Source: a virus. From it: a DNA stretch of 25,548 bases. Of the stretch, positions 2,202 through 18,546 are shown one piece after another. Each line of letters opens with the position of its first letter. The stretch's first letter is position 1. The stretch is from positions 1 through 25,548 of IMG/VR virus record IMGVR_UViG_3300009181_004851; one strand, given 5' to 3'. Position numbers and translations under genes: made by a program. A model generated the notes under the pieces. It did no database searches. It saw only the letters and a program-made list of their open reading frames with translations, and was not told where the DNA came from.

Positions 2202-3382
2202 ACGACTTACTTTTCACGAACCTCCAAAAGTTTCGCGGTTCATTAAACAATTCATTCTTAGAACGTGAAGAAATTATTGACGGCCTCTTGGCTTCTGTGA
2301 TCACAAAACAAAATACGTTTTTGTTTGGATTACCAGGGACAGGCAAGTCTGAATTAGTTCGTGCCGTATCAAACGGATTTAAAAACAGTAGATTCTTTGG
2401 TTACTTGTTATCGCCCACAACAGATCCTTCAGAACTGTTTGGCCCTGTGGCAATATCAAAGTTGTTGAAAGACGAGTACACAAGGGATGTACAAGGATAT
2501 TTGCCTAGTGCAAATATCGCATTCCTTGATGAGTTGTTTCGTGGCAGCTCTGCAGTGCTTAACTCACTGTTAACAGTGTTAAACGAACGCACGTTCAATA
2601 ACGGTAAAGAACTAATCCACACGCCAATCCAGTCTGTCGTTGCTGCTACAAACTCATTTCCACAAGAGGAATCGCTTCAAGCGTTTTGCGATAGGTTTTT
2701 ATTTAGACCGACAGTGGAAGCTTTAAAGAAACCAGCATCCCGTAGATTGTTAGATCTATGGGCTTTAGGTTTGAAGAAAAGGCCAAACGTTGAATCAGAA
2801 CTAACTTACGAAGACTTAATTGAACTACAAGAATCCTTAAGTGAAGTTAAAGTCACAGATGAGTTTTTAGATAAATTCTCACAGGTCTTTGATCTACTTG
2901 CTTCCAGAGGAATAACTATTAGCGACAGGCGTCGCGTTCAGATACTTAAGTTTATTAAAGGCTGGGCTATTGTGCAAGGAGATGATACAGTGTATGCTGA
3001 TCATCTACACAAATCATTGGTTCATATTATATATCAGAACGTGGACGATATAGGAGTTATAAAAGAAGTATTACAACAAGCAATACCCACGGCTGAAAGA
3101 ATGATTATTGATATAAAGCGAGCGCTAGGCGGGATATTAAGTGAGTATCACAGTATTAATGGCCAAGAATGTAAGGCTGTAAGCGATCTAAATAAACTCG
3201 TGAGTAAGTTACGTAAGTCACATAACGATGTGTCGGTCTTAGATCAGAAACTTTCATCCATTATGGAATCGAGTGAGTATCGTATCTCAGCGACCACGAG
3301 ACAGGAAGCCACTAAGGTGATCCAAACTTTAGACCAGACCAAACAATTGATTGCAAAATCAATCTCTGAGTTATGCAAATGA
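2198..3382 (+). CDS. RavA/MoxR-type AAA+ ATPase
   Basis: 394 residues. Walker A is GLPGTGKS at residues 44-51 and Walker B is IAFLDELF with D111-E112. Sensor 1 is in VAATNSF near residue 152 and an arginine-finger-like DRFLFR follows near 165. The segments DPSELFGPVAI and LNSLLTVLNERTFNNG match the MoxR group and most resemble RavA (compare its EEVFGP and LNTLLTAINERQF stretches). MoxR ATPases form hexamers and act with VWA-domain partners as metal-insertion or protein-remodelling machines. The next gene is just such a VWA protein, joined by an ATGA overlap. The region after about residue 190 is helical and may hold the lid and a RavA-like extension. Cytoplasmic; no signal or membrane segment. 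Confidence 0.85.
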   Translation: MNDLLFTNLQKFRGSLNNSFLEREEIIDGLLASVITKQNTFLFGLPGTGKSELVRAVSNGFKNSRFFGYLLSPTTDPSELFGPVAISKLLKDEYTRDVQGYLPSANIAFLDELFRGSSAVLNSLLTVLNERTFNNGKELIHTPIQSVVAATNSFPQEESLQAFCDRFLFRPTVEALKKPASRRLLDLWALGLKKRPNVESELTYEDLIELQESLSEVKVTDEFLDKFSQVFDLLASRGITISDRRRVQILKFIKGWAIVQGDDTVYADHLHKSLVHIIYQNVDDIGVIKEVLQQAIPTAERMIIDIKRALGGILSEYHSINGQECKAVSDLNKLVSKLRKSHNDVSVLDQKLSSIMESSEYRISATTRQEATKVIQTLDQTKQLIAKSISELCK

Positions 3383-4926
3383 ACTTAAAAACAGAGCAAC
3401 AATTTATTCGACTCATAAACAACGAGCCTCTTGTTATTTCGGTCTCAGCGCTTTGTGATTTTCTATGGGATGACTTTGTTCGTGATGCACAACCAACAGT
3501 TAGATACTTAGTTGATTACTACAACATCTCTCAGATATCACGATTTGGTAAGGAACTATTTGATCTCTTGTACAACGGTGGTGCGGTTACTCCTTTAATA
3601 AGTTTAGATGAAGTTGAAGATTATTTTCGACTCAAGCAAGATGGTCACAACCCAGCGCATCCAGCGGGGTATAAACCTGAGAATGCTTTTTGGGTGGGCT
3701 TGTTCAATGACGTATGCGAATCCCCGATGTGGCCTAACTTAGCTGCTTTATCGTGCGGTAATCAATTCAATGCAGGTAACAATGCAGTGAACATAATAAA
3801 CAAACTAAGCGAACTTATAGAAAAACAAATAGAAGAAAATGAATTACTTGGTCAGGCACTGATTAAAGGAGGAAAGCAAATACAAGAACTGCGGGATAAA
3901 TTTATGCAAGCTATGCAAGAAGGCAACGAAAAACAAGCGGCTGAATTTAGACAACTAGGTAAGGAACTAGGAAAACAAATGGAGAAAACTTTTAGTGATG
4001 TGCGCTCTCAAATGCAGCCTGCTGTATCAAACGTAATAGATAAAGTAAACGAAGAAGCAGAGGAGTTAAAGGAAGCACTCGATACTTTAGCTGGTACTAA
4101 CAAAGGAATCGGCTCCCACAGTGACGATTTAGAAACGAAGAGACACTTGGCACAAACACTGAAACAGAACAAACGTTTGAAACAGCTGATTAATAAAATT
4201 GGAGCCCTAAGAAAAGCTTGGAATAATAGGAAACGTGCTAAGCAAGCACAAAGTAATTACAGTGACATTGTGGGGGCTAAGTTCTCGGATGATATTAAGA
4301 ATATCTTCCCTGTTGAATTAGCTCTAGCTGGAGACATTATAGGACGGACTTTGTTTGCTCTCAAATACTCACAGAAAACTTTATTAACTAAAGACTACGA
4401 AGCAAAGATAAAAGAAATATCTAAAGGGCCCGTTGTTATGTACATAGACGTAAGCGGATCAATGTCTGGAAGCTCAGAGATATGGAGCAAAGCAATTGCT
4501 TATGTAGTTGCTGAAGAATGTTTAGAGCAGAAGCGAGAACTTCAAGTTCATCTGTTTGATACAGTGATACAAGAAAGCATAATTTTAAAAAGTGATCGAA
4601 ACAATAACGAAAAACTCTTAAACTTTGTAATGACCTGGTCTACAAGAGGTGGTACAGCCTTCTCAGCTGTATTAAACCACGCGCTGACTAAGGCTCAGAT
4701 TGATGCCAAAGCCGACGTTCTACTAATCACGGATGGTGAGTCTGAAATATCAGATCCTCTTGTACGCCGTTTAAATGAATTTAAAGACGAAACATGCCTT
4801 CAATGGAATACTTTTTGTATAGGTCAAAAAGCTAACGTCCTACATAAATTTAGTGATGAAGTTTTCTTAGTTAATGTCAACGATGACCCTAAGTCTGTTG
4901 AATTATTTCAAACATCTTTAAGGTAG
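3379..4926 (+). CDS. ViaA-like von Willebrand factor A domain protein
   Basis: The start at 3379 gives an ATGA overlap with the ATPase stop; an ATG two codons earlier is also possible. About 515 residues. The N-terminal half is helical with a long charged coiled coil (about residues 130-290). The C-terminal VWA domain has a complete MIDAS: D357-x-S359-x-S361 in YIDVSGSMSG, a Thr near 426 in RGGTAF, and D452 in LITDGES. The order of helical region then C-terminal VWA, and the wording around the first motif, resemble ViaA, the partner of RavA; CobT and BchD have the same logic. It probably binds the ATPase and presents a metal-dependent docking site. What the pair remodels in phage infection is unknown. 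Confidence 0.8.
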   Translation: MNLKTEQQFIRLINNEPLVISVSALCDFLWDDFVRDAQPTVRYLVDYYNISQISRFGKELFDLLYNGGAVTPLISLDEVEDYFRLKQDGHNPAHPAGYKPENAFWVGLFNDVCESPMWPNLAALSCGNQFNAGNNAVNIINKLSELIEKQIEENELLGQALIKGGKQIQELRDKFMQAMQEGNEKQAAEFRQLGKELGKQMEKTFSDVRSQMQPAVSNVIDKVNEEAEELKEALDTLAGTNKGIGSHSDDLETKRHLAQTLKQNKRLKQLINKIGALRKAWNNRKRAKQAQSNYSDIVGAKFSDDIKNIFPVELALAGDIIGRTLFALKYSQKTLLTKDYEAKIKEISKGPVVMYIDVSGSMSGSSEIWSKAIAYVVAEECLEQKRELQVHLFDTVIQESIILKSDRNNNEKLLNFVMTWSTRGGTAFSAVLNHALTKAQIDAKADVLLITDGESEISDPLVRRLNEFKDETCLQWNTFCIGQKANVLHKFSDEVFLVNVNDDPKSVELFQTSLR

Positions 4927-5642: not shown

Positions 5643-6449
5643 ATGAAACTCTCTTTCAAACTTGGCGACGCTTTCCTAGACACAGCTGAAGCCAACGCAT
5701 TGTTTTCGGCCACAGAGACTAAAGCCTCAATAACGATCAACATTCTTGACCACATAAACTTGCGCGACGTTGACGCGAAAAAGCTCTTTTCTCTCAGTGT
5801 AGAAAAGAAGAACCCCACACTGGCTTCCCTTGCCGCTAAATGTGCTATTGAAGGTCTCACACCAGGTAAGAAGCGCCGCACTGCTCCGATGAACCGCATC
5901 GTAGACATTGCTCCCAGCAAAAGTTTCTCTGATCCGGACGAAGCTGTTGCTGCTATAAACCAGATTGACCACATCAAAGGACTTGGAGCAGCAATGCTCT
6001 TGGTGTCCCTACGAGACGGACACAAAAAAACTCTCCGCCAAGTAGCTGTTGAAGCGGTTAACTACCTTGCTTATAGAGGTGAGGTGAGTGCCGACTCAGA
6101 CTGCTTTAGGGGATTTATTAAGAGCGAGAACGGAAGCTACCGTCCAATCTCTAAGGCTCCTGGAGTCGGTAGGAACGAGGTCTACCACGCGTCCCCTATG
6201 TACATTGCTCTTCGTGATGGCCTAGCTTTGCTAGCTTCCTGGGGAATGGTTCGCATGGAAAAAACAGTTGAGTTTGGTTCTAAAGATTCTGAACCTAATG
6301 GGAACTCGGATCTATTGCGTCGCACTGTGTACGCTGTGGAACTGACGCCCGCAGGACTCACTGTGGCTAATCAATGGGGAGACATCAGTTACTTTGTAAC
6401 CACACGCTGGAGCCAAAGGGTCCGTACCCGTAGCGTATATAGTGTGTGA
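5643..6449 (+). CDS. Hypothetical protein, possibly highly expressed
   Basis: 268 residues from ATG 5643; a TTG six codons upstream is less likely. No family is recognised. A first strand-rich segment contains KASITINILDHINLRD, a basic linker follows (GLTPGKKRRTAPMNR), then helices around AAMLLVSLRDGHKKTLRQVA. A C-terminal region with LALLASWGMVRMEK and YAVELTPAGLTVANQWG looks like a winged-helix wing (the LTPAG turn), so DNA binding is possible. Codons are richer in C-ending forms (ATC, AAC, CTC) than in neighbours. Together with a strong terminator 19 nt after the stop, this suggests an abundant product. Its own promoter is not obvious in 5587-5642. Confidence 0.65.
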   Translation: MKLSFKLGDAFLDTAEANALFSATETKASITINILDHINLRDVDAKKLFSLSVEKKNPTLASLAAKCAIEGLTPGKKRRTAPMNRIVDIAPSKSFSDPDEAVAAINQIDHIKGLGAAMLLVSLRDGHKKTLRQVAVEAVNYLAYRGEVSADSDCFRGFIKSENGSYRPISKAPGVGRNEVYHASPMYIALRDGLALLASWGMVRMEKTVEFGSKDSEPNGNSDLLRRTVYAVELTPAGLTVANQWGDISYFVTTRWSQRVRTRSVYSV

Positions 6450-6467
6450 AGCCTAGCCCACCTGTTC

Positions 6468-6492
6468 GGGCGTCCTCTGGGCGCCCTTTTTT
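6468..6492 (+). terminator. Intrinsic terminator after the 5643 gene, abutting the polymerase start
   Basis: GGGCGTCC and GGGCGCCC form an 8-bp GC-rich stem (one G-T pair) with a 3-nt loop, followed by six T. It ends only 3 nt before the ATG of the DNA polymerase, so polymerase mRNA must come from read-through or from a promoter in or before this hairpin. Confidence 0.85.
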
Positions 6493-6495
6493 ATT

Positions 6496-8391
6496 ATGAA
6501 TTTATTGTATTTAACATCACAAGATAAGTTTGATAAAGCTTTAGTTCAATTAGATAAGATCAAAAAACTTTGCATTGACACTGAAACAACTGGCTTAGAT
6601 GCTCGTATAGCAGATGTTAGGTTAATTCAAGTTTGCTCTACAGAAGAAAACGATGATGACAGGGACATCTACGTTTTTGATATGTTTAAGATTCCAGATC
6701 ACAGCAAGCTAAAAGCTTTTATTGAAAGTCGCGAGATGCTCGTGGCTCACTCAATGAACTTTGATTTCCAGTTCCTACTAAAAATAGGAATTGATTACAA
6801 GAATAAAATATTTGACACTTATATTGCGGAGCGTTGTTTACGTGCTGGCTTTAAAGAAAAACGAATAAGTCCGCAAGCTAAAAAACCTTACTTTGCAGAC
6901 GTATCGTGCAGCTTAAAAGCTGTTGTTAAACGACGACTAGATATTGAACTAGACAAAGAAGAACAAAGATCTGACTGGTCTAAGGAAGATTTGAAGATTG
7001 AACAGATTGAATATGCAGCTAAAGACGTAGACCTCCTCCCACGGGTGGCGGCCAGCCAATTAAAAGAACTTGTGGAGGAATCTTTACTTGATATTTATTC
7101 ACTTGAGTCTAAGTGTATTCGATCTGTAGCTACTATGTGTCATAAAGGATTTAATGTAGATGTTACTAAACTAATGGAACTAAAACTCAGCATTAGTAAG
7201 GAGCTTACAGATAAGACTCTAGAGTTCTGTACGGCACTAAACAGTGCACTTCCTGAAGAACTTAAACTTCCTAAAAATTTAGATGGAACGTTAGCTATAG
7301 GGAAAAAACCGAAGAAAGAATTCAACCCTGGATCAGGAGTGCAGTGCATCCGACTGTTTCAGGAATTAGGAATTAATCTGCCTGTGGATGGAACAACTGG
7401 TAAGCCTACACTTTCCCAGGTTGCTTTAAGTGAATTCGATAGCGAGGATGAAATACTAAATATGTACAGAAAGAGAGTAAAAGTAGAAACTAAATTAGAA
7501 CACGTAGAAAAACTTATAAATAACATAAATCCGATAACTCAACGAATCCACAGCGGTTATAACCAATACGGTGCTAATAGCGGTCGGTTTACGTCCTCAG
7601 GCGCAAAAAAACAAACAGCTGCTAAGGAGAAAACAGAGTTTGCAATTAACGCTCAACAAATACCAAGGAGCAACGAATTTAGAAGTTGTTTCAGGGCACA
7701 AGTTGGTTACAAACTTGTAATTTGCGATTTTTCGCAGATTGAACTCCGGTTAGGGGCAGAATTGATAAAGATCCCTCAAATGATCGAAGCTTTTAAAAAC
7801 GAACAGGACTTACACACGGTTACTGCGAGTTTAATTTACAAAATTCCTGTAGCGGAGGTACAAAAACACCAAAGGCAAGAGGGAAAAACACTTAATTTTG
7901 CTCTGTTATACGGAATGGGTTATCGAAAATATAAAACTTATGCGGCTCAATCAGGCAAAGTTATCTCGTTGTCAGACGCTAAGGTAGCGCACACAGCCTT
8001 TCATACAGCGTACCCACGGCTACGTGAGTGGCACCGTGAAAGATCAGCCATGGTTGCTGATGGGTGGTGCTATGTTCGCACTCCGCTGGGTAGGCGACGC
8101 CTTTTGTCTTATGACGATGCTCTGATGACGGCTTGTGCAAACACGCTAATTCAAGGGGCAGGTGCAGACATACTTAAGCTCTCTTTGGCTGAATTAGGTA
8201 AGTATCTAGACGACGAAGCTTCACTAGTGGCTTGTGTGCACGATGAAATTGTGCTGGAAGTCACTGAAAGCAGAGCAAACCAGTTTAAAGAAATCCTTGA
8301 GAAATCAATGACATTGGCAGCAGAGACTATTTTAAAAGTTGTTCCAGCCAAAGCCGACGCTTCTATTGCAGACACATGGGCAGAAAAATGA
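6496..8391 (+). CDS. Family A DNA polymerase with 3'-5' exonuclease
   Basis: 631 residues, a usual length for phage pol I-type replicative polymerases without the 5' nuclease. The proofreading domain shows Exo I D28-x-E30 in CIDTETTGLD, Exo II in HSMNFDFQFL and Exo III YAAKDVD. The polymerase domain shows motif A ICDFSQIELR (D near 411), the O-helix RQEGKTLNFALLYGMG (from about 460) with Phe at the position of E. coli F762, GRRR, and motif C VHDE (H582, D583, E584). All catalytic acids are present, so it should copy the phage genome with proofreading. There is no Shine-Dalgarno; a terminator hairpin ends 3 nt before the start. Its stop overlaps the next ATG. Confidence 0.95.
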   Translation: MNLLYLTSQDKFDKALVQLDKIKKLCIDTETTGLDARIADVRLIQVCSTEENDDDRDIYVFDMFKIPDHSKLKAFIESREMLVAHSMNFDFQFLLKIGIDYKNKIFDTYIAERCLRAGFKEKRISPQAKKPYFADVSCSLKAVVKRRLDIELDKEEQRSDWSKEDLKIEQIEYAAKDVDLLPRVAASQLKELVEESLLDIYSLESKCIRSVATMCHKGFNVDVTKLMELKLSISKELTDKTLEFCTALNSALPEELKLPKNLDGTLAIGKKPKKEFNPGSGVQCIRLFQELGINLPVDGTTGKPTLSQVALSEFDSEDEILNMYRKRVKVETKLEHVEKLINNINPITQRIHSGYNQYGANSGRFTSSGAKKQTAAKEKTEFAINAQQIPRSNEFRSCFRAQVGYKLVICDFSQIELRLGAELIKIPQMIEAFKNEQDLHTVTASLIYKIPVAEVQKHQRQEGKTLNFALLYGMGYRKYKTYAAQSGKVISLSDAKVAHTAFHTAYPRLREWHRERSAMVADGWCYVRTPLGRRRLLSYDDALMTACANTLIQGAGADILKLSLAELGKYLDDEASLVACVHDEIVLEVTESRANQFKEILEKSMTLAAETILKVVPAKADASIADTWAEK

Positions 8392-8669
8392 GTCAAGCTC
8401 CCGAACCAAAGCGAAAGTTTAAAGAAGGTGATCGAGTCAAGGAGATAAACAAAATGCAACAAATGTGTGTTAGTCCATTTGCATCAAGCGCTTCTAAAAA
8501 CGTGGTAACTAGAATTATGGCGGATACAAGAATAGGTACCGTTTCTGCAACAGGGATAAAGCGAACTTCAACAGGGCACCGTCGGGTTTATGTCGATGTG
8601 TTGTGGGACGGTTCAAAAACTCCTTCGAGACACGAACAAATGCGGTTAGCTTTGCTGGACAACGAATAA
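8388..8669 (+). CDS. Small SH3/KOW-like basic protein
   Basis: The ATG at 8388 overlaps the polymerase stop (ATGA); an in-frame ATG at 8376 lies inside the polymerase gene and is less likely. 93 residues, basic. The segments FKEGDRVKEI, RIGTVSATGI, RRVYVDVLWDGS and PSRHEQMRLAL have the order of strands and turns seen in small SH3-like/KOW barrels that bind nucleic acid. A polymerase accessory or nucleic-acid-binding role is inferred from the coupling. Confidence 0.6.
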   Translation: MSQAPEPKRKFKEGDRVKEINKMQQMCVSPFASSASKNVVTRIMADTRIGTVSATGIKRTSTGHRRVYVDVLWDGSKTPSRHEQMRLALLDNE

Positions 8670-8707
8670 ACGTTGAGTTACTCTTTGCAGAAATTACCAG
8701 AGCTCTA

Positions 8708-9262
8708 ATGGAAAATCAAACGACAACTTTAAATTTGTCTAAGCTACTAAGTGCTGCTTCATTTATCTACGATGCAAACCCGAGTAAAATCGTATTTACG
8801 TTGAGAGGTGAGGGTGGGTATTACGGTTGCGTAAAGTTAAACGATCAAATTCATTTGACTCCAGAAGTATTTCCCACAGCGTTTCAAGCGGCAAATAAAG
8901 CACGTAACCTCCAAAAAAATCTGAAAAATAAAGATAAACCGCAAACCTTAACTAAACCTACAAAAGTAACTAGCGAAAAAGTTAAAAAACAAGTAACTTA
9001 CTCTCGGAAGTTTCACACATTTCGAGAAACTCAGCACATGCCCCTTCTAAAATTCCAAGAGGTGTGGGTTATCACGAAAGGTGATACTTACGTACGAGAT
9101 TATTTAGATAAACAAAAACAAAGTCTTGTAACCTACACGACAGAACGTGGTAAAGCAAAGATCTATAAAGACCACGAGGAGGCCAAGATGAACATGAGAG
9201 TACTTAAAAATTTAATCGGACCTGGTTTTAATCTGATGCGTTTTTTTGTAGAAAACAAGTAA
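8708..9262 (+). CDS. Basic hypothetical protein
   Basis: The frame is open from GTG at 8603, but that would overlap the previous gene by 67 nt. The ATG at 8708 gives 184 residues with a 38-nt gap and is preferred. An N-terminal helical part (TTTLNLSKLLSAASFIYDAN) and a strand pair (IVFTLRGEGGYYGCVKL) are followed by a Lys/Thr-rich linker (about residues 73-105). A second domain contains VWVITKGDTYVRDYLDK and TTERGKAKIYKDHEEA. No family is recognised; the high Lys content suggests nucleic-acid contact. Confidence 0.55.
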   Translation: MENQTTTLNLSKLLSAASFIYDANPSKIVFTLRGEGGYYGCVKLNDQIHLTPEVFPTAFQAANKARNLQKNLKNKDKPQTLTKPTKVTSEKVKKQVTYSRKFHTFRETQHMPLLKFQEVWVITKGDTYVRDYLDKQKQSLVTYTTERGKAKIYKDHEEAKMNMRVLKNLIGPGFNLMRFFVENK

Positions 9263-9282
9263 ACTAGTAAAAAAAGTTTACC

Positions 9283-9513
9283 ATGGCTACAAGATACGCT
9301 GGTGATTATTTTGGTGTCAGCTTAGATGACTCATCAGACTCATCTAAACTTCTTGAATATTTTCCTGGGCTCAGAAACACGTATAGAAAAAAAACTACTG
9401 AAGCAAAGGAAAGACTGTACGAGGAAGACCCGGATAACGAACCTCGACTAACAGGGAACCTACGAGCTGCAGCTAGATTCCCTGGCTTTAAAACGTTTGA
9501 AGCCCCGCGATAG
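9283..9513 (+). CDS. Small hypothetical protein
   Basis: 76 residues starting at ATG 9283 in the context ACCATGG, 20 nt after the previous stop. N-terminal acidic/Ser-rich stretch (DDSSDSSK), then charged helices and a C-terminus rich in Arg/Ala/Phe. No recognised domain. It precedes a virion-like protein gene. Confidence 0.5.
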   Translation: MATRYAGDYFGVSLDDSSDSSKLLEYFPGLRNTYRKKTTEAKERLYEEDPDNEPRLTGNLRAAARFPGFKTFEAPR

Positions 9514-9562
9514 TTTTAGGCCTTGTTTTAAACTATACTATTGAAGATAAAGCTTTCGACCT

Positions 9563-10675
9563 ATGACTGCCTCTAGATATAAAGTACCCAAGGGTTTTTT
9601 AGACGTAGCAGGACAACGGTTAGGGCTGAACCTAGTCGACCTGTTCGGAGACGATGACAAAGGTAAGGCAAACTTGGAAGGGTTTGAGCCTGTATATAAC
9701 ACACAAACACAATTCACGACTAAAGGTAGGGGTGGTGTCTTAAGTTACCAAACACCAAAAGTTCCCACGACGACATACACAAGTGAGTTCTCCCTCATAC
9801 CTGAGAGAAAAGAAGCTGCACCTGCTGGACCAACTGGACCAACTGGACCGACCACAAAAAGCTACAACTGGAACGCATACGGTAACCTCGGGGGACCTGG
9901 CTACGGTGCTAAAGATTTAGAAAAAGCTTTAGCTGAAGGTTTTAGTGAGCAAGATGTTAAAAACTACATACAACAAAATAAACAACTTTTTGGTCCTGGC
10001 CGGTTAAATCTGGCTGAAGATCTCCAAAAGAAATTTGGCTTTGAATACTCTTATGTAAACCCTGTTGTACAGTCAGAAGTTTTAGCAGGTAAATATGGCA
10101 CACCACCATCGTTGACTCGAATGGCAGACCCATCGAAATTCGCAAACCCACTACAAACGCAGGAATTTAAAAAAGCAGAAAATGTAGCCCCAATAACAGC
10201 GGGAATCTCCACGGCCTACGGGATCGACCCTAAGTACTTTGGTGGAGAAGATTTAACAGCTGCTCGTAAACAAGGATTTAGTAATCAACAAATTAAAGAC
10301 TATTTAGACCAAAATCCTTCCTTGCTGAGAGAACAAAATATTAAAGGAGGAGGTGGTCTGTATGACGAACTTGCAAAAGCACTTGCTCCTACCCCACCGG
10401 TAGCTCCAGTTCAAGAAAAACCTAGATTTGACAACCCGCTACAAACTCAAGAATTTGTAAAAGCCCCAGAGTCAATTCAAGAAAAACCTAGAGAAATCTC
10501 AACTAATTTTGGTATCGATTCTTCTTATTTTGGAGGTGAAGATTTAACAGCTGCTCGTAAGCAAGGCTTTAGTGACGCAGAAATTAGAGCGTTCTTAGAT
10601 AAAAATATTACAGGCTTGCTTCGCGAAGGCAATCTACCAGGTAAAGGTGGTGTTTACGATATGCTGAAAGTTTAA
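9563..10675 (+). CDS. Repeat-containing virion-like protein with collagen-like triplets
   Basis: 370 residues of low hydrophobicity. A short (GPT)n collagen-like run lies near residues 88-96. It is followed by three copies of a module of about 45 residues: a degenerate one from about 113 (YGAKDLEKALAEGFSEQDVK) and two close copies, from about 221 and 318, sharing YFGGEDLTAARKQGFS and ending GGxYDxL. The two late copies are preceded by a repeated NPLQTQEF linker. Similar short Gly/Tyr-started helical repeats occur, as I recall, in marine phage structural or ejection proteins. There is no enzyme motif. The position among replication genes is odd for a structural gene. A weak TATACT box lies at 9534-9539. 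Confidence 0.7.
   Translation: MTASRYKVPKGFLDVAGQRLGLNLVDLFGDDDKGKANLEGFEPVYNTQTQFTTKGRGGVLSYQTPKVPTTTYTSEFSLIPERKEAAPAGPTGPTGPTTKSYNWNAYGNLGGPGYGAKDLEKALAEGFSEQDVKNYIQQNKQLFGPGRLNLAEDLQKKFGFEYSYVNPVVQSEVLAGKYGTPPSLTRMADPSKFANPLQTQEFKKAENVAPITAGISTAYGIDPKYFGGEDLTAARKQGFSNQQIKDYLDQNPSLLREQNIKGGGGLYDELAKALAPTPPVAPVQEKPRFDNPLQTQEFVKAPESIQEKPREISTNFGIDSSYFGGEDLTAARKQGFSDAEIRAFLDKNITGLLREGNLPGKGGVYDMLKV
10222..10668 (+). repeat. Two long intragenic repeat copies (protein module)
   Basis: The segments beginning near 10223 and 10514 encode nearly the same module. At DNA level they share stretches such as GAAGATTTAACAGCTGCTCG. The high nucleotide identity between the last two copies, against the diverged first copy near 9901, suggests a recent duplication within the gene. 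Confidence 0.6.
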
Positions 10676-10693
10676 AAATAATAACAAATCTAA

Positions 10694-11218
10694 ATGGATG
10701 AGTATTGTTTAGTCGTAGAAAAAAATAAAAAAGAATTACAACTCTGCGTAAAGGCTAACGATAATAACCACGCTAAGGCACAAGCAGTAGACATTGCACG
10801 AGGACTTCAAGCAGACGCATTTACACTCGTATACGGACAAATTGAATCTTGTGAGTTAAGCGAATTTTTTAACAAATTAGCTTTTAGTAACTTTAGTCAC
10901 ACAGAATGCTTTACTTGGCAAGGAAAATACTGCAACAACACTCCAATAATATATGCGTTAGGGACTAAATACTACGTACGTCCTCTAATACTTTCGTACC
11001 TAGACATACCTAAAGATTCTTTTGTACTACCCAAATGCAAAAGGAAAAACTGCATAAACCCTTTCCACAATACTTACAAAAATATGAAAGCCTCAAAGCT
11101 TACTAGCGCAGATAGGCAATTGGCGCTAGCCTTCGCAAGCCAAGGCACCCCTATCAAGGACATCGCTAAGGCATTTAAAGTTCACCGCTCTTCGATCTAT
11201 CGCTTGTTTAACCAATGA
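10694..11218 (+). CDS. HNH-like zinc-finger protein with C-terminal HTH, catalytic His apparently lost
   Basis: 174 residues. Residues 70-128 follow the plan of small phage HNH endonucleases: CFTWQG, a strand pair, a helix with a leucine-rich stretch, then CxxxxCINPxH (C115, C120, H125). In active relatives a histidine sits two residues before the first of these cysteines (H-x-C); here it is Pro113. The C-terminus (about 138-173, ending DIAKAFKVHRSSIYRLF) is a resolvase-type helix-turn-helix. It may therefore be a DNA-binding regulator derived from a homing-type nuclease. Stop and next ATG overlap (ATGA). Confidence 0.65.
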   Translation: MDEYCLVVEKNKKELQLCVKANDNNHAKAQAVDIARGLQADAFTLVYGQIESCELSEFFNKLAFSNFSHTECFTWQGKYCNNTPIIYALGTKYYVRPLILSYLDIPKDSFVLPKCKRKNCINPFHNTYKNMKASKLTSADRQLALAFASQGTPIKDIAKAFKVHRSSIYRLFNQ

Positions 11219-11859
11219 ACATCCTCCTTTTAGGTCTCCGCGTCACCGACGAACCAATAGAAAGTGAAGGCAACTGCAATTTAAACGCAGAAGCTTTACC
11301 TTCAACCGAAAAGAAAATTCCGACAAAAGTAGTTTTAAGTCAGAAAGCAGATCACTATGTAGGAAAACTACTAAAGAAACTTAAAGATAAGGAAGTTTTC
11401 CTTGCTATCGGACCAACCAAAGCGGACCCGGATGGTTTGCTAAAGATGCAACCAATGCTAATTGCCAGAAAAGACAATTGGGATGATCTACTTGCTATCA
11501 ATCTTTATATAGCCACGGGTGGTCTTGGTCCAAAAGCTGAAGAAAATCAACTTGGCGACAACACAGTCACCAACAGATCTTTGGCTTGGCAGGATGAAAA
11601 CCAAGAAACAAACTGGATGAAGATATCTTGCTGGAATGAACTGTCAGCTCAACTGGCAGAGCTACCTGCAGGAACCCCCACTATTGCTGTTGGAAGGGTA
11701 AGCACATCCGAAAAAGACGAAAGAGTATTCTTGAACTACGGCGTGGATAAGATTCTTTATCTGCCTCGCACACAAAAAGCAGCCCCCACAAAGGCTGCAG
11801 ACCCTGAAAAGGGTCGAGTTTCTACTGCTGCTCTCGGTTCTCTCGATTTTTCGCTTTAA
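11215..11859 (+). CDS. SSB-like single-stranded DNA-binding protein
   Basis: 214 residues. Residues 92-182 have the pattern of an SSB OB fold: INLYIATGGLGPKAEEN, SLAW, TNWMKISCWNELSAQLAEL, then a G-T-P-T-I-A-V-G-R strand. The C-terminus after about residue 185 is a flexible linker ending in AALGSLDFSL, reminiscent of SSB tails that recruit partners, though less acidic than the bacterial DDDIPF. The N-terminal 90 residues are an additional domain of unknown fold. It should coat single strands during phage replication. Coupled to the upstream gene by ATGA. Confidence 0.65.
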   Translation: MNILLLGLRVTDEPIESEGNCNLNAEALPSTEKKIPTKVVLSQKADHYVGKLLKKLKDKEVFLAIGPTKADPDGLLKMQPMLIARKDNWDDLLAINLYIATGGLGPKAEENQLGDNTVTNRSLAWQDENQETNWMKISCWNELSAQLAELPAGTPTIAVGRVSTSEKDERVFLNYGVDKILYLPRTQKAAPTKAADPEKGRVSTAALGSLDFSL

Positions 11860-11865
11860 CTAACC

Positions 11866-12699
11866 ATGGTATTTATCGCAGGCAAATTCTCAGCTGATGA
11901 AATCCTTTGTCAGATTCCCCCCCACACACTACGAATTGATTTGCAGGCTCGTCGTTGGAAATCCGACAGTGATCCTGAGGCGGCCATCGTTGACACCAAC
12001 GACAATGGCATACCCATCGAGTTCATCTTGCTTGGCTTCACACCATTCTTTGGTAACCTCGGCATGCGGGCGCACGAAGAATTTATACGAATTAGTTTTA
12101 TCGGTGTTTCACCCAATCATCGTCTACTACCTCCACGGTGTGTCTGCACGAGCATTATCAGCGGTAAGTCAAGCCAAAAAAACTTTATCACGTACTTCCA
12201 GACGCTGTATAACAATCGTATAAACGTAGGTGAAGTAGTAACAAGTACCAAGTTCGTGCAGAAATCATTTAACGAACGCGATGCCTTTACAGGAGCTGAT
12301 GGTCCAAAAATAAACTACAACGCATTAGAGTTTAAGGATCGACCTTCACAGAATGACGAGGAGAAAAAGCTCATACAGGATGTATCTTCCTGGCTTGAGA
12401 CTTCTGGAACAGAGCTGGTATCAGCTGCATTACGTTCTTCTATCCCCGGTTCTAATCTGGTTGAATTACCTCTGGGTGAAGACCACGGTGGTATTAAGGA
12501 AGCTTTTATGGAGGCTCATCCCAAAAGATTAGAGGGTTCTTTTGAATCGCACAAGGCTTCCTTGCCTCCGGCTGCTGAAGCTCCAAAAAAAGCTGAGGCT
12601 GAAGTACCTCAAGCGACGCCAGCTCAAAAACCAACTAAAGGACGAGAGCTGAACGAAGAACAGAAAGCGGCGCTAAAAGCGGCTGGTCTGGATTTTTGA
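11866..12699 (+). CDS. Hypothetical protein with SSB-like C-terminal tail, likely abundant
   Basis: 277 residues, ATG in ACCATGG context, 6 nt after the SSB-like gene. A beta-rich N-terminal domain (about 1-130, with FILLGFTPFFGNLGMRAHEEF) is followed by a helical part. A Pro/Ala/Lys-rich linker (about 225-260) leads to the terminal AALKAAGLDF. The layout of globular domain, disordered linker and short hydrophobic tail, and the shared LDF ending, mirror the preceding SSB-like protein, so it may be a second ssDNA-binding or replication-hub protein. Codon choice is C-rich compared with neighbours. A strong terminator follows. Confidence 0.65.
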   Translation: MVFIAGKFSADEILCQIPPHTLRIDLQARRWKSDSDPEAAIVDTNDNGIPIEFILLGFTPFFGNLGMRAHEEFIRISFIGVSPNHRLLPPRCVCTSIISGKSSQKNFITYFQTLYNNRINVGEVVTSTKFVQKSFNERDAFTGADGPKINYNALEFKDRPSQNDEEKKLIQDVSSWLETSGTELVSAALRSSIPGSNLVELPLGEDHGGIKEAFMEAHPKRLEGSFESHKASLPPAAEAPKKAEAEVPQATPAQKPTKGRELNEEQKAALKAAGLDF

Positions 12700-12727
12700 C
12701 GTAAACTGTCTAAGGACATGGGGAACG

Positions 12728-12753
12728 CGCCTTCGTTTGAAGGCGTTTTTTTT
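12728..12753 (+). terminator. Intrinsic terminator after the SSB-like pair
   Basis: CGCCTTC and GAAGGCG form a perfect 7-bp stem with a GTTT loop, followed by eight T. It closes the polymerase-SSB transcript. Confidence 0.9.
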
Positions 12754-12780
12754 CTACATTTTTAGAACGATTTGGTATCA

Positions 12781-13314
12781 ATGGCGTTTTACCACGTGCC
12801 GAAATTTATTTTTGGCCCTATTGCCGACTCAAAATTGTGCTCTGGCACAGTCCTCTTACCAGCAGATTTTGACGGCCAACTCTTTGAACAAGTTAAAGAC
12901 TCTAATGTAACAGACATTATTACGAACGTATCAGAACAAAACATCCAAGATAAAAACTGGTGGGAAACTCAGAGGGGTAAGGTTGACTGGGTGATTGCAA
13001 TAACACAAGGACTAGGTGAATACACACCATGGGTCATTGAATACGGTTTAGACGTGGCAAAACAAGGAATATGCATACTGGATCGAATCACTTTTTTAGA
13101 ACCTGTACGCAGTCGCGAAACCTTTCTTAAATCAGCTTCCTTAGTAAATCTAAAGATTCTAAGCCCTAGACCGTCATTCCGTGCAGATGGTAAGCAATTA
13201 AAGGATTCAGTAACCTCAGCGTGGTTTGTTTTCAAAAAAGATGGACAAAAATTTACGAGTACAGTTATCGAGTACGAAGTAGGCTGGCTGCGCCCAAAGA
13301 CCCCCCAACCATGA
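12781..13314 (+). CDS. Methyltransferase-fold protein lacking the NPPY motif
   Basis: ATG 12781 is chosen over a TTG three codons upstream. 177 residues. Residues 43-80 and 96-150 match the pattern of phage/cyanobacterial DNA adenine methyltransferase-like proteins: VTDIITNV, a spacer, GKVDWVI, then ILDRITFLEPVRSRETFL, NLKILSPRPSFRADG and SVTSAWFVF. In active relatives the strand after DW(V/I) carries (D/N)PP(Y/F); here it reads AITQGLGEY. The N-terminal part with the SAM-binding FxGxG motif is replaced by about 40 unrelated residues. It probably keeps the fold without catalysis, so a decoy, DNA-binding or scaffold role is possible. Stop and next ATG overlap. Confidence 0.6.
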   Translation: MAFYHVPKFIFGPIADSKLCSGTVLLPADFDGQLFEQVKDSNVTDIITNVSEQNIQDKNWWETQRGKVDWVIAITQGLGEYTPWVIEYGLDVAKQGICILDRITFLEPVRSRETFLKSASLVNLKILSPRPSFRADGKQLKDSVTSAWFVFKKDGQKFTSTVIEYEVGWLRPKTPQP

Positions 13315-13622
13315 GTAAACAACTCTATAAGGCCTTGGACCAACTTATTGCTCTACAAAAAGAGCAGTGTCTCAAGCTAGATAAAATAGCGGCAGTGTTG
13401 ATAAGTACACAACTACTCACTGAGTGCGTGGATTACCACGGAGAAGCAAGATCAGCTGAGGACTGTGCGTCAATAACATTAGATGGTTTTTCGTCCGCGC
13501 TGTGTCTGATGAACGATTTAGATCAGCGTAACCGTGACTATCAATATCAAGCTAGTGAGTTCTTCGTAGACGATGACGAAGAAGACGAAGAAGAAAATGA
13601 TGTTATCTCGGATTCCTTCTAG
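13311..13622 (+). CDS. Small protein with acidic C-terminus
   Basis: The ATG at 13311 overlaps the upstream TGA. 103 residues: an N-terminal helix (LYKALDQLIALQKEQCLKLDKIAAVL) and a C-terminal run of about 17 residues that is nearly all Asp/Glu (DDDEEDEEENDV). Acidic tails of this sort mimic DNA or bind basic partners, but no known anti-restriction family is recognised. Confidence 0.6.
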   Translation: MSKQLYKALDQLIALQKEQCLKLDKIAAVLISTQLLTECVDYHGEARSAEDCASITLDGFSSALCLMNDLDQRNRDYQYQASEFFVDDDEEDEEENDVISDSF

Positions 13623-13647
13623 AATTACATAAGTTGACACGCACATT

Positions 13648-14427
13648 GTGTCCCAAACAAGGGTAACTTTAAACGGACTAAGGCATTACGTTTGTAATGG
13701 TGTTCCTAAACCACTTCCTTCTGTCACGTCGATCCTAAGCACAGCTCAAACAGAAAAAACGCGACAAAAACTCGCGACTTGGAATCTGTTAAATCCAGGT
13801 GTTGCCGACCAAGCAGCCGAAAGAGGAACGTGGATCCACGGAAGTGCAGAGAACTACCTAAAGGGGTTGCGAGTCGTTCCGCCTGAAAAGTACAAACCTT
13901 ATTGGGATGGTGTCCCTGAATTACTGGATAATTTACTCAAAGGAGGACGAGTTCTGTGGTCAGAAAAACCATTCAACCAGCCTAAATGGAGTAAATATGT
14001 TGGAGACGACGGAGTCGGAAGAATTCACTATTACGATCCAGTAACAGGTCACGGATACGCTGGCTGTTGTGACCTAATCTACATGAACGAAAATGCCGAG
14101 ATAATCTTGGCTGACTTTAAAACCAGTAACGGACCTTATGCAGCAAAGTTTCCTAGAAAAGAACAAGTGATGAGCGAAGAAATACGAAAAGCTTTAGTCT
14201 CCGGTGTTTTTAAAGTTAAGAAAACACGACTGCAGTTAGCAGCTTATAAAGCAGCAGCTGAAAGTTGTTTAGGTATTAAGATAAACAAAACGCAAATAAT
14301 TGTCGCCACAGCGATTAAAGAATTCAACACTCAAATATTTACGTTTGGCCCTGAAGAAATTGAAAGAGACGAAGAAAGTTGGTTTGAAGTTGTGAAACAA
14401 TATTACGATATGCAGCAAGTAACTTAA
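13648..14427 (+). CDS. RecB/Cas4-type PD-(D/E)XK nuclease
   Basis: Start GTG at 13648, 25 nt after the previous stop; no ATG precedes the conserved region. 259 residues. The nuclease core is visible: SVTSIL (24-30), RGTWIHGSAENYL with H64, GCCDLI with D142, ADFKT with D156 and K158, and QLAAYK with Q197 and Y200. These form the catalytic set of RecB-like nucleases, here probably an exonuclease in phage recombination or end processing. The spacer between the D-x-K and the Q-Y motif is long, about 38 residues, and partly basic. There is no Cys cluster of the Cas4 iron-sulfur type. Confidence 0.8.
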   Translation: MSQTRVTLNGLRHYVCNGVPKPLPSVTSILSTAQTEKTRQKLATWNLLNPGVADQAAERGTWIHGSAENYLKGLRVVPPEKYKPYWDGVPELLDNLLKGGRVLWSEKPFNQPKWSKYVGDDGVGRIHYYDPVTGHGYAGCCDLIYMNENAEIILADFKTSNGPYAAKFPRKEQVMSEEIRKALVSGVFKVKKTRLQLAAYKAAAESCLGIKINKTQIIVATAIKEFNTQIFTFGPEEIERDEESWFEVVKQYYDMQQVT

Positions 14428-14456
14428 TGATCCGATCAAGCATAGGGGAACAGACA

Positions 14457-14507
14457 ATGTCTAAAGAATTTATTTCGGGTGCACAACCCCTTTTGTTGGC
14501 AGACTAA
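14457..14507 (+). CDS. Possible 16-residue leader peptide before the primase-helicase
   Basis: An ATG preceded at about 9 nt by AGGGG opens a 16-codon frame (MSKEFISGAQPLLLAD) ending 17 nt before the primase-helicase ATG. It fills the only gap between the nuclease and the primase and has a better ribosome site than most genes here. Such a short frame can be chance. Confidence 0.25.
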   Translation: MSKEFISGAQPLLLAD

Positions 14508-14524
14508 GCTATCCAAGGCACGTC

Positions 14525-17302
14525 ATGAAGTTCATTTGTTCTGTAAACGAAGTAGTCGCTCAGCATGTCCATCCAAAAACTGGAAAGATACCTGTAGGCG
14601 GAAACTTCGCAGCATTCAACCTTAATTGGATAGCGAAGGAGCTGAGTGCGTCGGATCTAGCAACCGAGTTATCACAGGGTTATGGTCTATGCGCGTGGCA
14701 CCTACTTGAAGGCAAGAGACAATCCGAATCAACCGGCGTAATCAAAGCTGGAATGATAATAGTTGATATAGATAACCAGGAAGATCGGAAAGATTCCGAT
14801 GGAAACAAGGTACAGAGACAAGAACTTACTTTTGACCAAGCACTCGAACTAGACATTTGCAAAAAATATCTAACGCTTGCCTATTACTCTCCCTCAACAA
14901 CATCAGAGTGGCCACGGTTCCGATTAGTTTTTGGCTTAGAGAAACCGATAATTGACCCAGGATTTTATAAATTTTTTACACAGAAAATATACGCACAGAT
15001 TCCTGGCTCAGATATAAGAGCGACAACGGTACCCAACCTCTTTTACGGCCCCAAAAAAGGTGAGAAAGTTTTCGACATATCTGGTAACTACATACCAGCT
15101 TCAAAACAGGATGAAGCTCACCGAGCATATTTAGCTACACCAAGAGAAGAAAGCCGGGACGATAAGACTGCAGAAGACATAATGAATACATTAACGATTA
15201 GTGAAGAAGGATTAGATCTTAAAAAATTGGTGTCAACTACTGTACGTTCAGTTTTAGACGGCGAGGCAGTAGAGGACCGAAGCTCAACAATGGCAGCGGT
15301 TTTCAAGGAGCTCATAGGCTGGAGTAATTGGTTGACAGCACATAGTATGCCTGTGTGCGCATCAGCGTTGACAGTAGCACACCAAGCGTTCTATAATATC
15401 TACGCCTACCCTCACGACCTGGACAGCAAATTTGACCGAATCTTAAACTCGATAAAAGACGCGACTGACATCCAGCCTGCGATCGCTCTGGCTTCAGACC
15501 TAGGTTCTCTGGCCATATGGAAAAAAATTAAGAACATCGACTACAAGCTCTATCAACAACATGCGACTGAAGAGATCAAAGAACAGCTCAAGCAACTCAA
15601 AAAAGCACAAGTAAACGCTGTCCTAGATTTTTCTTCCTTTCTACTCGACAGCCCGATTGAAACCAAACCAGACACGGCTATCTCAAAAACTACACAAGAA
15701 AATCAAATGCAAGTCCCATCAACACCCACACAGCTCATTAATCTTCAAAACGCAGGAAATAGTCAGAATCGTCAGTTCTCCGAAAACGATGTAGCAGACA
15801 TAATCGTCACTAATCAGGGCGATGATTTTCTGTACGACAGTAGCCTAGATCAGTTTTATCATTACGACTTTGACTATGACCTGTGGTATCAACAGGATGA
15901 ACAACATATCAAACGAAGGATTGTTAAGGCACTCGACTCATTTGTTTTAGCTGGTGTATTGCCTAAATACACTTCAGCAACAATAAACAGTGTGTACTTA
16001 ATACTGAAAGCCAAGCTTTTGCGCTCCGATGACGGAGGTAGAAAAAGTATTTGGAGTAAGTCAAAAGGTCTTATTGCTTTTCAGAACGGTGTATTAGATA
16101 CACGCACATTTGAATTCTTGGAGGGAAAACATAAAAATTTATTCCTAAGACACAAACTGCAATACGCTTACAACGGTAAGGCAAAATGCCCAGAGTTTAA
16201 AGACTGGTTAAAGAATTCACTTAATGCGGGTCAGGAGCTTTTGATTCAAGCTTTTGCCCGAGCAATACTAACGGGTTACACAGCAGGAGAACGGTTTCTA
16301 CACCTAGTCGGTCCTGGCGGAACAGGAAAATCAACCATGCAACAAATCATGGTTGCGTTAGCAGGCTTTCACGGAACACATACGTCTAGCCTTGAGATTA
16401 TTGAGACTAACAAATTTGAAACGTACAACCTAATAAGTAAGCGCTTACTTTTGCTTACAGATGAAAGCAACTACAACAAACGTATGGACATACTTAAAAA
16501 GCTCACTTCCGCATCAGACACACTACGCGCCGAACGAAAGTACGGCAAAGAGATTATCAGCTTTAAACCTGAATGTTTGGTCTGTATAGCTAGTAACGAA
16601 CACATAACGTCTAACGATTCTAGTAGTGGACTCGAAAGGAGACGACTTACGATTCTTATGGACAAGGTTGTACCTCCTAGCTCCAGAAAAGAACTAATCA
16701 GTGTCCACGACGATCACATCGAAGGATCGTTTGAACCTGAAATGAGTGGCATTGTCACATGGGCGCTGTCTATGTCTTACGACCAAATGAAGGATGTTTT
16801 AGCTAACCCAACTAAGCATGTGCCTTCACTCAACAAGACAAATATAGATGCGCTCTTGTTCAATAATCAATTCGTTTCGTGGCTTAACGACTGTTGTCTG
16901 TATGCACCAAATACGCACACACCTATTGGTCAAGGAGCACGAAAGCCCTCGGTGGACGAATCCGAAAAAGGTATGTACGTATCAAACTCATATGGTGCTC
17001 TGTATCCTAGCTATGCAAACTTCTGCAAGGCCTGTGGCTACAAGCCAGCAGCTAAACACAGATTCATTGAGCGAACCAAAGAAGCTCTAATCAACATCCT
17101 TAAACTGGACGGCATTGAGCTTCTGTTAAAAGATGGTATTCCTTCTATGAAGGGTTTGCGTTTGAAAGGATATGATCTAAAGTCGGACCGGGCTGCAACC
17201 GGGCCTGATCGACTGCCCTCACCAGTTGAGTTTGCTCAAGATCCCACGACATCCATCTGGAACTCTGCCTTTCAAAAACATGACACGCCTACCGAAACTT
17301 GA
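14525..17302 (+). CDS. Primase-helicase (AEP-like N-terminus, D5/SF3 helicase C-terminus)
   Basis: 925 residues. The N-terminal domain resembles archaeo-eukaryotic-type phage primases: IIVDIDN with D81 and D83, then YYSPSTTSEWPRFRLVFGL and a YGP segment. The position after the serine, usually a histidine in this group (S-H-T), is not His here, so primase activity is uncertain. The C-terminal half is an SF3 helicase of the D5/P4 type: Walker A GPGGTGKST (596-604), Walker B LLLLTDES (about 641-648), motif C LVCIASNE and GLERRRL with the arginine finger near 702. A D5-like region precedes it. It would unwind the replication fork and perhaps prime it. The final codons overlap the next gene by 23 nt. 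Confidence 0.88.
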   Translation: MKFICSVNEVVAQHVHPKTGKIPVGGNFAAFNLNWIAKELSASDLATELSQGYGLCAWHLLEGKRQSESTGVIKAGMIIVDIDNQEDRKDSDGNKVQRQELTFDQALELDICKKYLTLAYYSPSTTSEWPRFRLVFGLEKPIIDPGFYKFFTQKIYAQIPGSDIRATTVPNLFYGPKKGEKVFDISGNYIPASKQDEAHRAYLATPREESRDDKTAEDIMNTLTISEEGLDLKKLVSTTVRSVLDGEAVEDRSSTMAAVFKELIGWSNWLTAHSMPVCASALTVAHQAFYNIYAYPHDLDSKFDRILNSIKDATDIQPAIALASDLGSLAIWKKIKNIDYKLYQQHATEEIKEQLKQLKKAQVNAVLDFSSFLLDSPIETKPDTAISKTTQENQMQVPSTPTQLINLQNAGNSQNRQFSENDVADIIVTNQGDDFLYDSSLDQFYHYDFDYDLWYQQDEQHIKRRIVKALDSFVLAGVLPKYTSATINSVYLILKAKLLRSDDGGRKSIWSKSKGLIAFQNGVLDTRTFEFLEGKHKNLFLRHKLQYAYNGKAKCPEFKDWLKNSLNAGQELLIQAFARAILTGYTAGERFLHLVGPGGTGKSTMQQIMVALAGFHGTHTSSLEIIETNKFETYNLISKRLLLLTDESNYNKRMDILKKLTSASDTLRAERKYGKEIISFKPECLVCIASNEHITSNDSSSGLERRRLTILMDKVVPPSSRKELISVHDDHIEGSFEPEMSGIVTWALSMSYDQMKDVLANPTKHVPSLNKTNIDALLFNNQFVSWLNDCCLYAPNTHTPIGQGARKPSVDESEKGMYVSNSYGALYPSYANFCKACGYKPAAKHRFIERTKEALINILKLDGIELLLKDGIPSMKGLRLKGYDLKSDRAATGPDRLPSPVEFAQDPTTSIWNSAFQKHDTPTET

Positions 17303-17861
17303 TCTAACACTAGTAATCGCCGGAGTCCTAGGGATCGGTGCCTACACAGCAGTGGCTTCTCCTGAAAACCTTGGAGCAGCTCTTGCTTTTGGAGGAGGTT
17401 TACTAGGAGGTGCCAGTATTGTGCGCGAACGTTCGTGGGCTGCCAAGAGTCAAGAGGAGACTTCAATAAAAGTCACGTCAACTTTTACAGCTCTTTACGA
17501 AAATAATGGTGGTCTTGTAGATCCTTTTCAACTCGCGTACCTTGCAAACATCGAGCCTGAACGTGCCTACGCATTCTTATCTTCTCTAGCTCAAAACACA
17601 GGAGGAAAAACGATAAACGTTAAAAACGAAGGCCATGTGGTTTTTGAATTTCCTCATACAAAAAGTACGCTTGAAGAACTTACTCTCAATGCACAAAATT
17701 GGGTTAAAGCTCAGAATCAAGAGTTAGTACTAGAACTACAGAAACATAAACAATTTATTAGTCTTCTACAAGCTCAACAGGCTCAGCAAACACAACAAAC
17801 CAGAACAAATGCTTTAGCTTCTTCTGAAGCTCAATCAGATATAGACCCTTGGACTAGGTAG
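17280..17861 (+). CDS. Membrane-anchored protein with winged-helix-like domain and Gln-rich tail
   Basis: The ATG at 17280 lies inside the end of the primase-helicase gene in another frame and gives 193 residues. Two hydrophobic segments, about residues 9-26 and 32-48, form a hairpin in the membrane. A soluble domain (about 62-125) follows, with helices FTALYENNGGLVDPFQLAYL and AYAFLSSL and a strand pair, in the order of a winged helix. A coiled coil and a Gln-rich run (QAQQAQQTQQT) come next. It might tether DNA or a protein complex to the membrane. Its stop overlaps the stop of thyX on the other strand by 8 nt. Confidence 0.6.
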   Translation: MTRLPKLDLTLVIAGVLGIGAYTAVASPENLGAALAFGGGLLGGASIVRERSWAAKSQEETSIKVTSTFTALYENNGGLVDPFQLAYLANIEPERAYAFLSSLAQNTGGKTINVKNEGHVVFEFPHTKSTLEELTLNAQNWVKAQNQELVLELQKHKQFISLLQAQQAQQTQQTRTNALASSEAQSDIDPWTR

Positions 17862-18546
17862 ACTCACCAAAGTTCCAACCTGCTAAAGAAGGATCGTCAA
17901 CGGTTTTAATTGCTTTGTAAACAATAGGAAGTTCTTTTTTTAAAATACGTCCGATGCTGTGGGCTATATTCCGATGCTCTAGTTGAGTATTTTCTTTGCC
18001 ACGCAGGCCAACGTAATGAATAAAAGATCTTATTGTGCCACTCATATGCACTCTTGTTGTTGTGTACTCTGGTAAAACATTTCGTGCACACTCTTTTGCT
18101 ATTCCAAGCTCAAGCATCTCGCGGTATACACTTTTAATATCTTGATCAATAAACTTAAGTTTCTCCCAAAAATAGTTTCGTAGATCTCCTGATATCTCTT
18201 CTGCGCTGCTCTGTCGGTTAGTCTCCGCTTGTAGTCGCAGATCAAATTTAAACTCGTCTTTTACATCAGGTAAAACCTCACTTGGGTCTGAATATCTTTG
18301 CGATAACTCTTGAAAGGTAAAACTGCGATGACGTAATAGTTGCGGCGAGATCGCCCGAGTTGTAGCTATTTCGAAAGATGCCGAAGCTTGTTCAAATACA
18401 CTCCAATGCCCATGCCGAACACAAAAACTTAAGAGTCTAGTAAATTCTTCTCTCTCTGGATCTTTGGTTGATACTCGTGCGTGACGAGCAATAGTTTTTT
18501 CAGATTTTGGTGTGATCCAATTGAGCTCAGCCGAATGAAGCTTCAC
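17854..18546 (-). CDS. thyX: Flavin-dependent thymidylate synthase
   Basis: 230 residues. The ThyX signature RHRx7S is present (R72, H73, R74, S82, in RHRSFTFQELSQRYS), with upstream HGHWSVFE and downstream GLRGKENTQLEHRN, which in the family binds dUMP and FAD. It makes dTMP from dUMP using methylene-tetrahydrofolate and FAD, and serves phage DNA synthesis. The start is GTG, sharing one base with the stop of the upstream small gene (TAGTG), so translation is coupled. ThyX genes are common in cyanophages. Confidence 0.93.
   Translation of the reverse strand: MKLHSAELNWITPKSEKTIARHARVSTKDPEREEFTRLLSFCVRHGHWSVFEQASASFEIATTRAISPQLLRHRSFTFQELSQRYSDPSEVLPDVKDEFKFDLRLQAETNRQSSAEEISGDLRNYFWEKLKFIDQDIKSVYREMLELGIAKECARNVLPEYTTTRVHMSGTIRSFIHYVGLRGKENTQLEHRNIAHSIGRILKKELPIVYKAIKTVDDPSLAGWNFGEST

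Follow-up and report, generated by a model that had tools for sequence, protein, structure and literature searches.

A probable pseudo-methyltransferase gene with a fixed place in a phage replication module

The window is the whole stretch of DNA analysed here (25,548 bases), a 25.5-kb virus record from IMG/VR. At 12781-13314 on the forward strand it carries a gene for a 177-aa protein which resembles phage DNA methyltransferases and reads differently where their catalytic motif lies. The locus raises the question of whether an enzyme has lost its activity while the fold was kept and, if so, what the protein does for the phage. Pseudo-methyltransferases are a known kind of protein, and inactive methyltransferase subunits are known in eukaryotes. 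The original prediction was of a catalytically dead, methyltransferase-like protein. The profile matches, the predicted fold, the motif loss and the dN/dS values support this, and the motifs suggest that the protein is probably inactive.

The gene, its relatives and its predicted fold

The gene has an ATG start, with an alternative TTG start at 12772, and all of its features lie on the forward strand. FYHVP (residues 3-7; 12787-12801) is the counterpart of FYPTP in the intact phage enzymes. VLLPADFDGQL (residues 24-34; 12850-12882) is the counterpart of EPxxGxG, the SAM motif I of these enzymes; it has lost the acidic residue to another one but has mostly retained the proline. DWVIAITQG (residues 69-77; 12985-13011) stands in the place of TNPPF/Y, the catalytic motif IV. 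Two further blocks are shared with the intact enzymes, namely DRITFLEPVRSRETFL (residues 101-116; 13081-13128; RLQFLEGxKR in the intact enzymes) and LSPRPSFRADG...DSVTSAWFVF (residues 127-151; 13159-13233). The conserved flanking blocks quoted in the original prediction are found in the sequence as described, and the frame is open over its full length, with its stop overlapped in an ATGA by the next gene (13311-13622). The SAM-binding N-terminus had been described as gone. Since the alignment with the intact enzymes begins at FYxxP, the N-terminal half is present, and it is altered (FYPTP to FYHVP, EPxxGxG to LLPADFDG) rather than missing.

The PHROG 799 family, labelled 'DNA methyltransferase', matches residues 57-163 of the protein with an E-value of 6.7e-6; searches of Pfam and, with phmmer, of the PDB sequences gave no match. 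An hhalign comparison of 20 family members with 12 intact phage enzymes gives a probability of 98.4% and an E-value of 8.1e-15 over columns 4-169 (2.3e-12 with the 17 closer members), which rules out a chance resemblance to methyltransferases. The closest known systems are the PHROG 799 phage DNA methyltransferases, such as those of Citrobacter phage Tr1 (WNL63277.1), Salmonella phage SSE121 (YP_009148971.1) and Staphylococcus phage S-CoN_Ph25 (WNM55080.1). They share the domain of about 180 aa, the [FY]Y.TP start and the FLExxxR and RPSFxxDG...AWFVW blocks, but they keep EP and NPPF/Y where the window protein has LLPxD and AxTQG. Among 21 related long records that carry the gene, the phrog_799 profile detects it in 15 and misses it in six.

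A first scan of viral contigs found 42 relatives and a second one 88, with 80 of the 88 listed. Five loci encode intact enzymes with EPACGDG and TNPPF that are 25-27% identical to the window protein, and these loci show none of the window's neighbouring genes. A scan of bacterial and archaeal genomes with two short peptide patterns found no relative. In a collection of phage records, the best tblastn matches of the 177-aa protein were weak (E 0.05 and above among the 20 of 78 listed), and there was no match at the DNA level to window positions 6000-18000.

An AlphaFold2 model of the protein has a mean pLDDT of 76 and a pTM of 0.76, with low confidence at both ends. Foldseek returns 28 PDB matches at E<=0.001, of which 27 are titled methyltransferases and one (1ne2) is unnamed; the best E-value is 3.6e-5, M.TaqI scores 1e-4, and the TM-scores of these 28 matches are modest (0.38-0.56 of the query). 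In a viral library, phage methyltransferases make up most of the named matches. VIA gives a Z-score of 13.1 for 2f8l and 11.1 for M.TaqI (151 residues, 3.4 A), with RNA methyltransferases in between. The protein is predicted on this model to have a class I SAM-dependent methyltransferase (Rossmann-like) fold, and neither Foldseek nor VIA found another. M.TaqI (an N6-adenine DNA methyltransferase; PDB 1aqj / 2adm) shares the catalytic-domain fold at a Z of 11 over about 150 residues and 3.3-3.4 A, but the window protein lacks its NPPY, its SAM motif and its second domain. RNA and DNA methyltransferases reach comparable scores, so the substrate cannot be read from the fold. Profile comparison and structure prediction, two of the checks proposed with the original prediction, both point to a methyltransferase-like protein.

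Motif replacement and selection across the family

All 12 intact phage enzymes that were aligned have the same E and P in motif I and the same NPP in motif IV. Likewise, NPP is kept in 17 of the 18 intact-group loci that cover motif IV, and the one exception has a stop inside the match. The scans gathered 86 proteins (85 loci and the window), of which 81 belong to the family of the window protein and five to the intact group. In none of the 81 does motif IV contain NPP. A further 18 members came from a profile search of 28 long records that had been selected via another gene; 16 of these show motif IV and again none has NPP. Taken over both samples, NPPY/F is absent at motif IV in all 97 readable members. 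The absence is partly circular in the scan that gave 88 relatives, since one of its patterns contains the altered motif IV. The 42-relative scan, the 28-record profile search and two scans based on neighbouring genes are free of this circularity. The downstream exonuclease gene led to 342 loci, and all 80 that were listed carry the gene, with 79 readable and NPP in none. The conserved upstream gene g11866 led to 191 loci, and 77 of the 80 listed carry the gene, with 74 readable and again no NPP; the three contigs without it stop less than 270 bases from g11866. No match to the intact-type profile outscores that of the altered family in any neighbour-fetched locus. Contigs overlap between scans, so the counts from different scans are not additive.

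The replacement itself is nearly uniform. Motif IV almost always reads A-[IV]-T-Q-G, with one G-I-T-Q-G locus in the neighbour-based scans, and the divergent members read AITHG, CVTQG, AATTG, ACTMG, ASTMG or ANTTG. At motif I, L25, L26, P27 and D29 are invariant in 49 distinct proteins and no acidic residue precedes the proline; in the divergent members this motif is further altered. Two members (L045 and L046) have an NPP in the C-terminal tail and not at motif IV. The family thus has neither the (D/N/S)PP(Y/F/W) motif IV nor the (D/E)PxxGxG motif I of N6-adenine DNA methyltransferases. As no relative read at this locus retains the motifs, their loss is a trait of the family. The replacement of NPPY/F seen in the window is therefore not an isolated mutation, and no homologue with NPPY was found at the same place. 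Continued SAM-dependent methyltransferase activity by way of an unusual catalytic motif would fit the overall predicted fold and the several flanking residues retained, but it is very improbable given that the motif I glutamate and the motif IV NPP are gone in all readable members and kept throughout the intact enzymes but for the one interrupted locus.

The gene is under purifying selection. The median Nei-Gojobori dN/dS is 0.08 over 285 pairs with a dS of 0.1-1.5 (63 distinct coding sequences; maximum 0.29), and pairs that include the window gene give 0.05-0.12. This rules out a decaying gene, in agreement with the original prediction, and supplies the selection analysis in relatives that it had called for. 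A73, T75, Q76 and G77 are present in 63 of 63 distinct coding sequences and use 4, 4, 2 and 4 codons, respectively, so the replaced motif IV is itself under purifying selection; position 73 is G in one neighbour-fetched locus. The 49 distinct proteins, a count that leaves out L045 and L046, have 58 invariant positions. In a set of 20 sequences reaching down to 36% identity, T75, G77, D29, D69, D101, R102, E107 and D142 are invariant.

The replication neighbourhood and the acidic partner

The window gene lies among genes of DNA replication, all on the forward strand. Upstream are a family A DNA polymerase (6496-8391; Pfam DNA_pol_A, 5.6e-64), an SSB-like protein (11215-11859; Pfam SSB, E 2.9e-4, a score that falls short of the curated cut-off) and g11866 (11866-12699), which encodes a conserved protein of 277 aa with the C-terminal tip AAGLDF and is present in 80 of 80 loci. 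Downstream are the acidic-tail gene (13311-13622), an exonuclease (13648-14427; PHROG 298, E 6.7e-24, with no Pfam match above noise) and a primase-helicase (14525-17302; DUF5906 5.8e-17, D5_N 4.4e-11, PHROG 864 DNA primase 4.7e-43). Further upstream the window has an ATPase (PHROG 19600) at 2198-3382 followed by a PHROG 24053 protein at 3373-4926; matches to MoxR and to a vWA domain are present in a related 86-kb record. The tips of two of the upstream proteins are conserved, LGSLDFSL of the SSB-like protein in 67 of 74 and AAGLDF of g11866 in 67 of 81, and look like peptide ligands for a shared partner. No relative of g11866 was found in the phage record collection.

Gene order is fixed as far as the contigs reach. 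In the 80 loci listed, g11866 and the acidic gene flank the methyltransferase-like gene in every case, and the exonuclease is downstream in 79, the remaining contig ending before it. In the 18 divergent loci the acidic gene, the exonuclease and the primase are downstream in all 18 and g11866 is upstream in 15; the other three begin too late to include it. Ten of the 28 long records do not have the gene. Since none of these ten holds the exonuclease either and two begin inside the primase, the absences are explained by contig ends.

This distribution bears on an anti-restriction role, in which the inactive fold would act as a decoy or shield, occupying host recognition sites or pairing with host restriction-modification subunits and so blocking restriction. 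The relatives are annotated DNA-modifying enzymes, the neighbouring acidic protein could be a DNA mimic, and one related 86-kb phage has a weak match to the restriction-alleviation protein Lar (E 5.9e-4). Anti-restriction genes are typically patchy in distribution, however, and this gene is present in every record that reaches its place. There is also no separate target-recognition domain within the 177 aa, and the conservation is strong (dN/dS 0.08). A role of this kind, which the original prediction had suggested as a decoy against restriction, is unlikely.

A predicted intrinsic terminator (12727-12754, forward strand; z -4.3) lies between g11866 and the methyltransferase-like gene. A hairpin with a T-run is found in 52 of 54 distinct spacers under a loose criterion with no shuffle control. 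Since the predicted terminator recurs, the gene is probably the first of a unit that also encodes the acidic protein, the exonuclease and the primase-helicase. The sequence upstream of the gene showed no sigma-70-like promoter. The spacer in the window (12700-12780) has 81 bases and that of most relatives about 280-305 bases; a promoter or an origin may lie in the longer ones.

The acidic protein has 103 aa and ends DDDEEDEEENDVISDSF. Its gene overlaps the one before it by four bases in 71 of 81 loci. The original prediction gave it a tail of about 17 acidic residues, which is too high: nine D/E residues are consecutive, 11 are found in the last 20, and the protein ends DVISDSF. A terminal Phe is present in 78 of 81 acidic proteins, nearly always behind the acidic run. 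The gene product is without it at three loci, and at L045 and L046 the Phe is present on a weakly acidic product. Among the divergent loci, 17 of 18 gave a complete next frame, ending in Phe (14), Trp (2) or Arg (1). An acidic C-terminus with a terminal aromatic residue, as in SSB-type tails, is thus found in most members (Phe in 78 of 81; Phe or Trp in 16 of 17 divergent ones). Acidic tails of phage SSBs contact replication partners. T7 gp2.5 likewise ends in an acidic run and Phe, a residue that was reportedly the subject of a 2009 paper by Ghosh, but Pfam recognises no family in the acidic protein, an ssDNA-binding OB-fold included.

Two altered methyltransferases and their possible function

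The explanation judged best, at about an even chance, is that the protein is a pseudoenzyme, a non-catalytic DNA-binding or scaffold protein of the replication module with a methyltransferase fold, partnered with an acidic and mostly Phe-ended protein. The computed results are homology, a predicted fold, a fixed place, both motifs replaced in all members read, and purifying selection that extends to the replaced motif IV. A PHROG 799-type phage methyltransferase would have lost its SAM motif and its catalytic NPPY/F, apparently before this lineage of uncultured phages diversified, and its fold would have been retained for a non-enzymatic job. The gene would open the transcription unit behind the predicted terminator, and its translation would be coupled to that of the acidic protein. 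The C-terminal half, which is the better kept one (FLEPxRxRE...RPxFRADG...DSVTSAWFxF), may still engage DNA or a partner, and the tail of the acidic protein may resemble the partner-recruiting tails of phage SSBs. Together, the two proteins may form a DNA-bound adaptor of the replication or recombination machinery. This mechanism is drawn from the motifs and the neighbourhood, and it is the neighbourhood that points to replication; the role of DNA-binding partner suggested in the original prediction fits the fixed place in the replication module. Against an adaptor, g11866 and the SSB-like gene lie on the other side of the predicted terminator, and Synechococcus phage S-EIV1, a distant relative, has no match to the family.

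The lineage also has a second altered methyltransferase, of the Dam type. A search with PF05869 gave a match in four of 22 records, each time to this second protein. It is present in eight of 23 records, and every one of the six records that carry the pseudoenzyme gene and reach 50 kb is among the eight. Of 28 long records with the Dam-type protein, 18 also hold the pseudoenzyme gene, among them all nine that reach 74 kb; both length cut-offs were set after the results had been seen. In the 80 best of 315 loci, the Dam-type protein has (Y/F)LxPP(R/K) in place of NPPY (80 of 80) and retains a DPAS-type motif I. Pfam Dam matches seven of seven proteins of the second family at E<=0.1 (best 6.8e-7). 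A model of the second protein has a mean pLDDT of 56, too low for use. A direct relation between the two families is unsupported (hhalign 0.6%). The protein AHV82250 of S-EIV1 (L250:2408-3001, annotated 'hypothetical') is 32% identical to the second protein. It has YLFPPN in place of NPPY and is likewise altered, but it belongs to the PF05869 family, unlike the pseudoenzyme. Because of this YLFPPN, the second altered family may extend to an isolated cyanophage. For the primase, the polymerase and the Dam-like protein, the nearest named relatives come from cyanophages (28-32% identity), which is only a hint to the host.

It is conceivable that the lineage swapped DNA methylation for DNA reading. 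Two separately inactivated folds and the acidic, Phe-ended protein would then form a non-catalytic complex that recognises DNA sites or their methylation state and steers replication or packaging. This extension is speculative and, like the anti-restriction role, unlikely.

A non-catalytic subunit that activates an intact methyltransferase of the host or phage, in the manner of METTL14, is quite unlikely. The ciliate protein MTA9 is similar to the METTL14-type inactive subunits. METTL14 is described in PMC9852454 as an inactive, methyltransferase-like protein that aids RNA binding. The pseudoenzyme would share with such subunits a methyltransferase fold without the catalytic motif, as far as its sequence and model indicate, and the same phages encode a second methyltransferase-like protein, but no intact partner was found in the families searched. 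PF01555 matches none of 22 related records, the four PF05869 matches are the second altered protein, and the phrog_799 matches in 15 of the 21 gene-carrying records each fall on the pseudoenzyme gene itself. No intact DNA adenine methyltransferase was thus found in 21-22 long records with phrog_799, PF01555 and PF05869, and the second family is without NPPY in the 80 best loci. A C5 cytosine DNA methylase (PF00145, E 1.2e-70) is present in one of 22 related records (L101; G011, 12076-13095). One 86-kb record has matches to Methyltransf_24 and Methyltransf_3, perhaps in one protein, and a Dam match; its Pfam scan covered 68 of the 83 frames with 110 aa or more, with 25 of 26 families listed in the first batch. 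The search for other methyltransferase families covered this one record, and many of the records are fragments.

A new enzyme is also quite doubtful. The rebuilt pockets (LLPxD; DWVxAxTQG) would bind another ligand or act otherwise on DNA. The 58 invariant positions, the residues invariant down to 36% identity and the strong constraint on the new motif IV speak for it, and D29, D69, D101, R102, E107 and D142 could be a new active site, which would count against the adaptor. With FYxxP and the proline of motif I mostly retained, a ligand could still sit in the old pocket. However, D69, R102 and E107 occupy positions that the family shares with its intact relatives, which makes some of the invariance an inherited one, and motif IV drifts in the divergent members, which speaks against a catalytic role for it.

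For the pseudoenzyme adaptor, no report of a phage lineage that keeps an inactive methyltransferase as a fixed gene of its replication module was found in the open-access literature. As far as this literature search reaches, a pseudo-methyltransferase fixed in a phage replication module and doubled by a second altered family is new. Reading the PHROG label 'DNA methyltransferase' as evidence of a capacity for methylation or anti-restriction is probably wrong for these phages. A lineage with two inactivated methyltransferase folds would be a clean natural case, and a testable one, of the use of this fold without catalysis.
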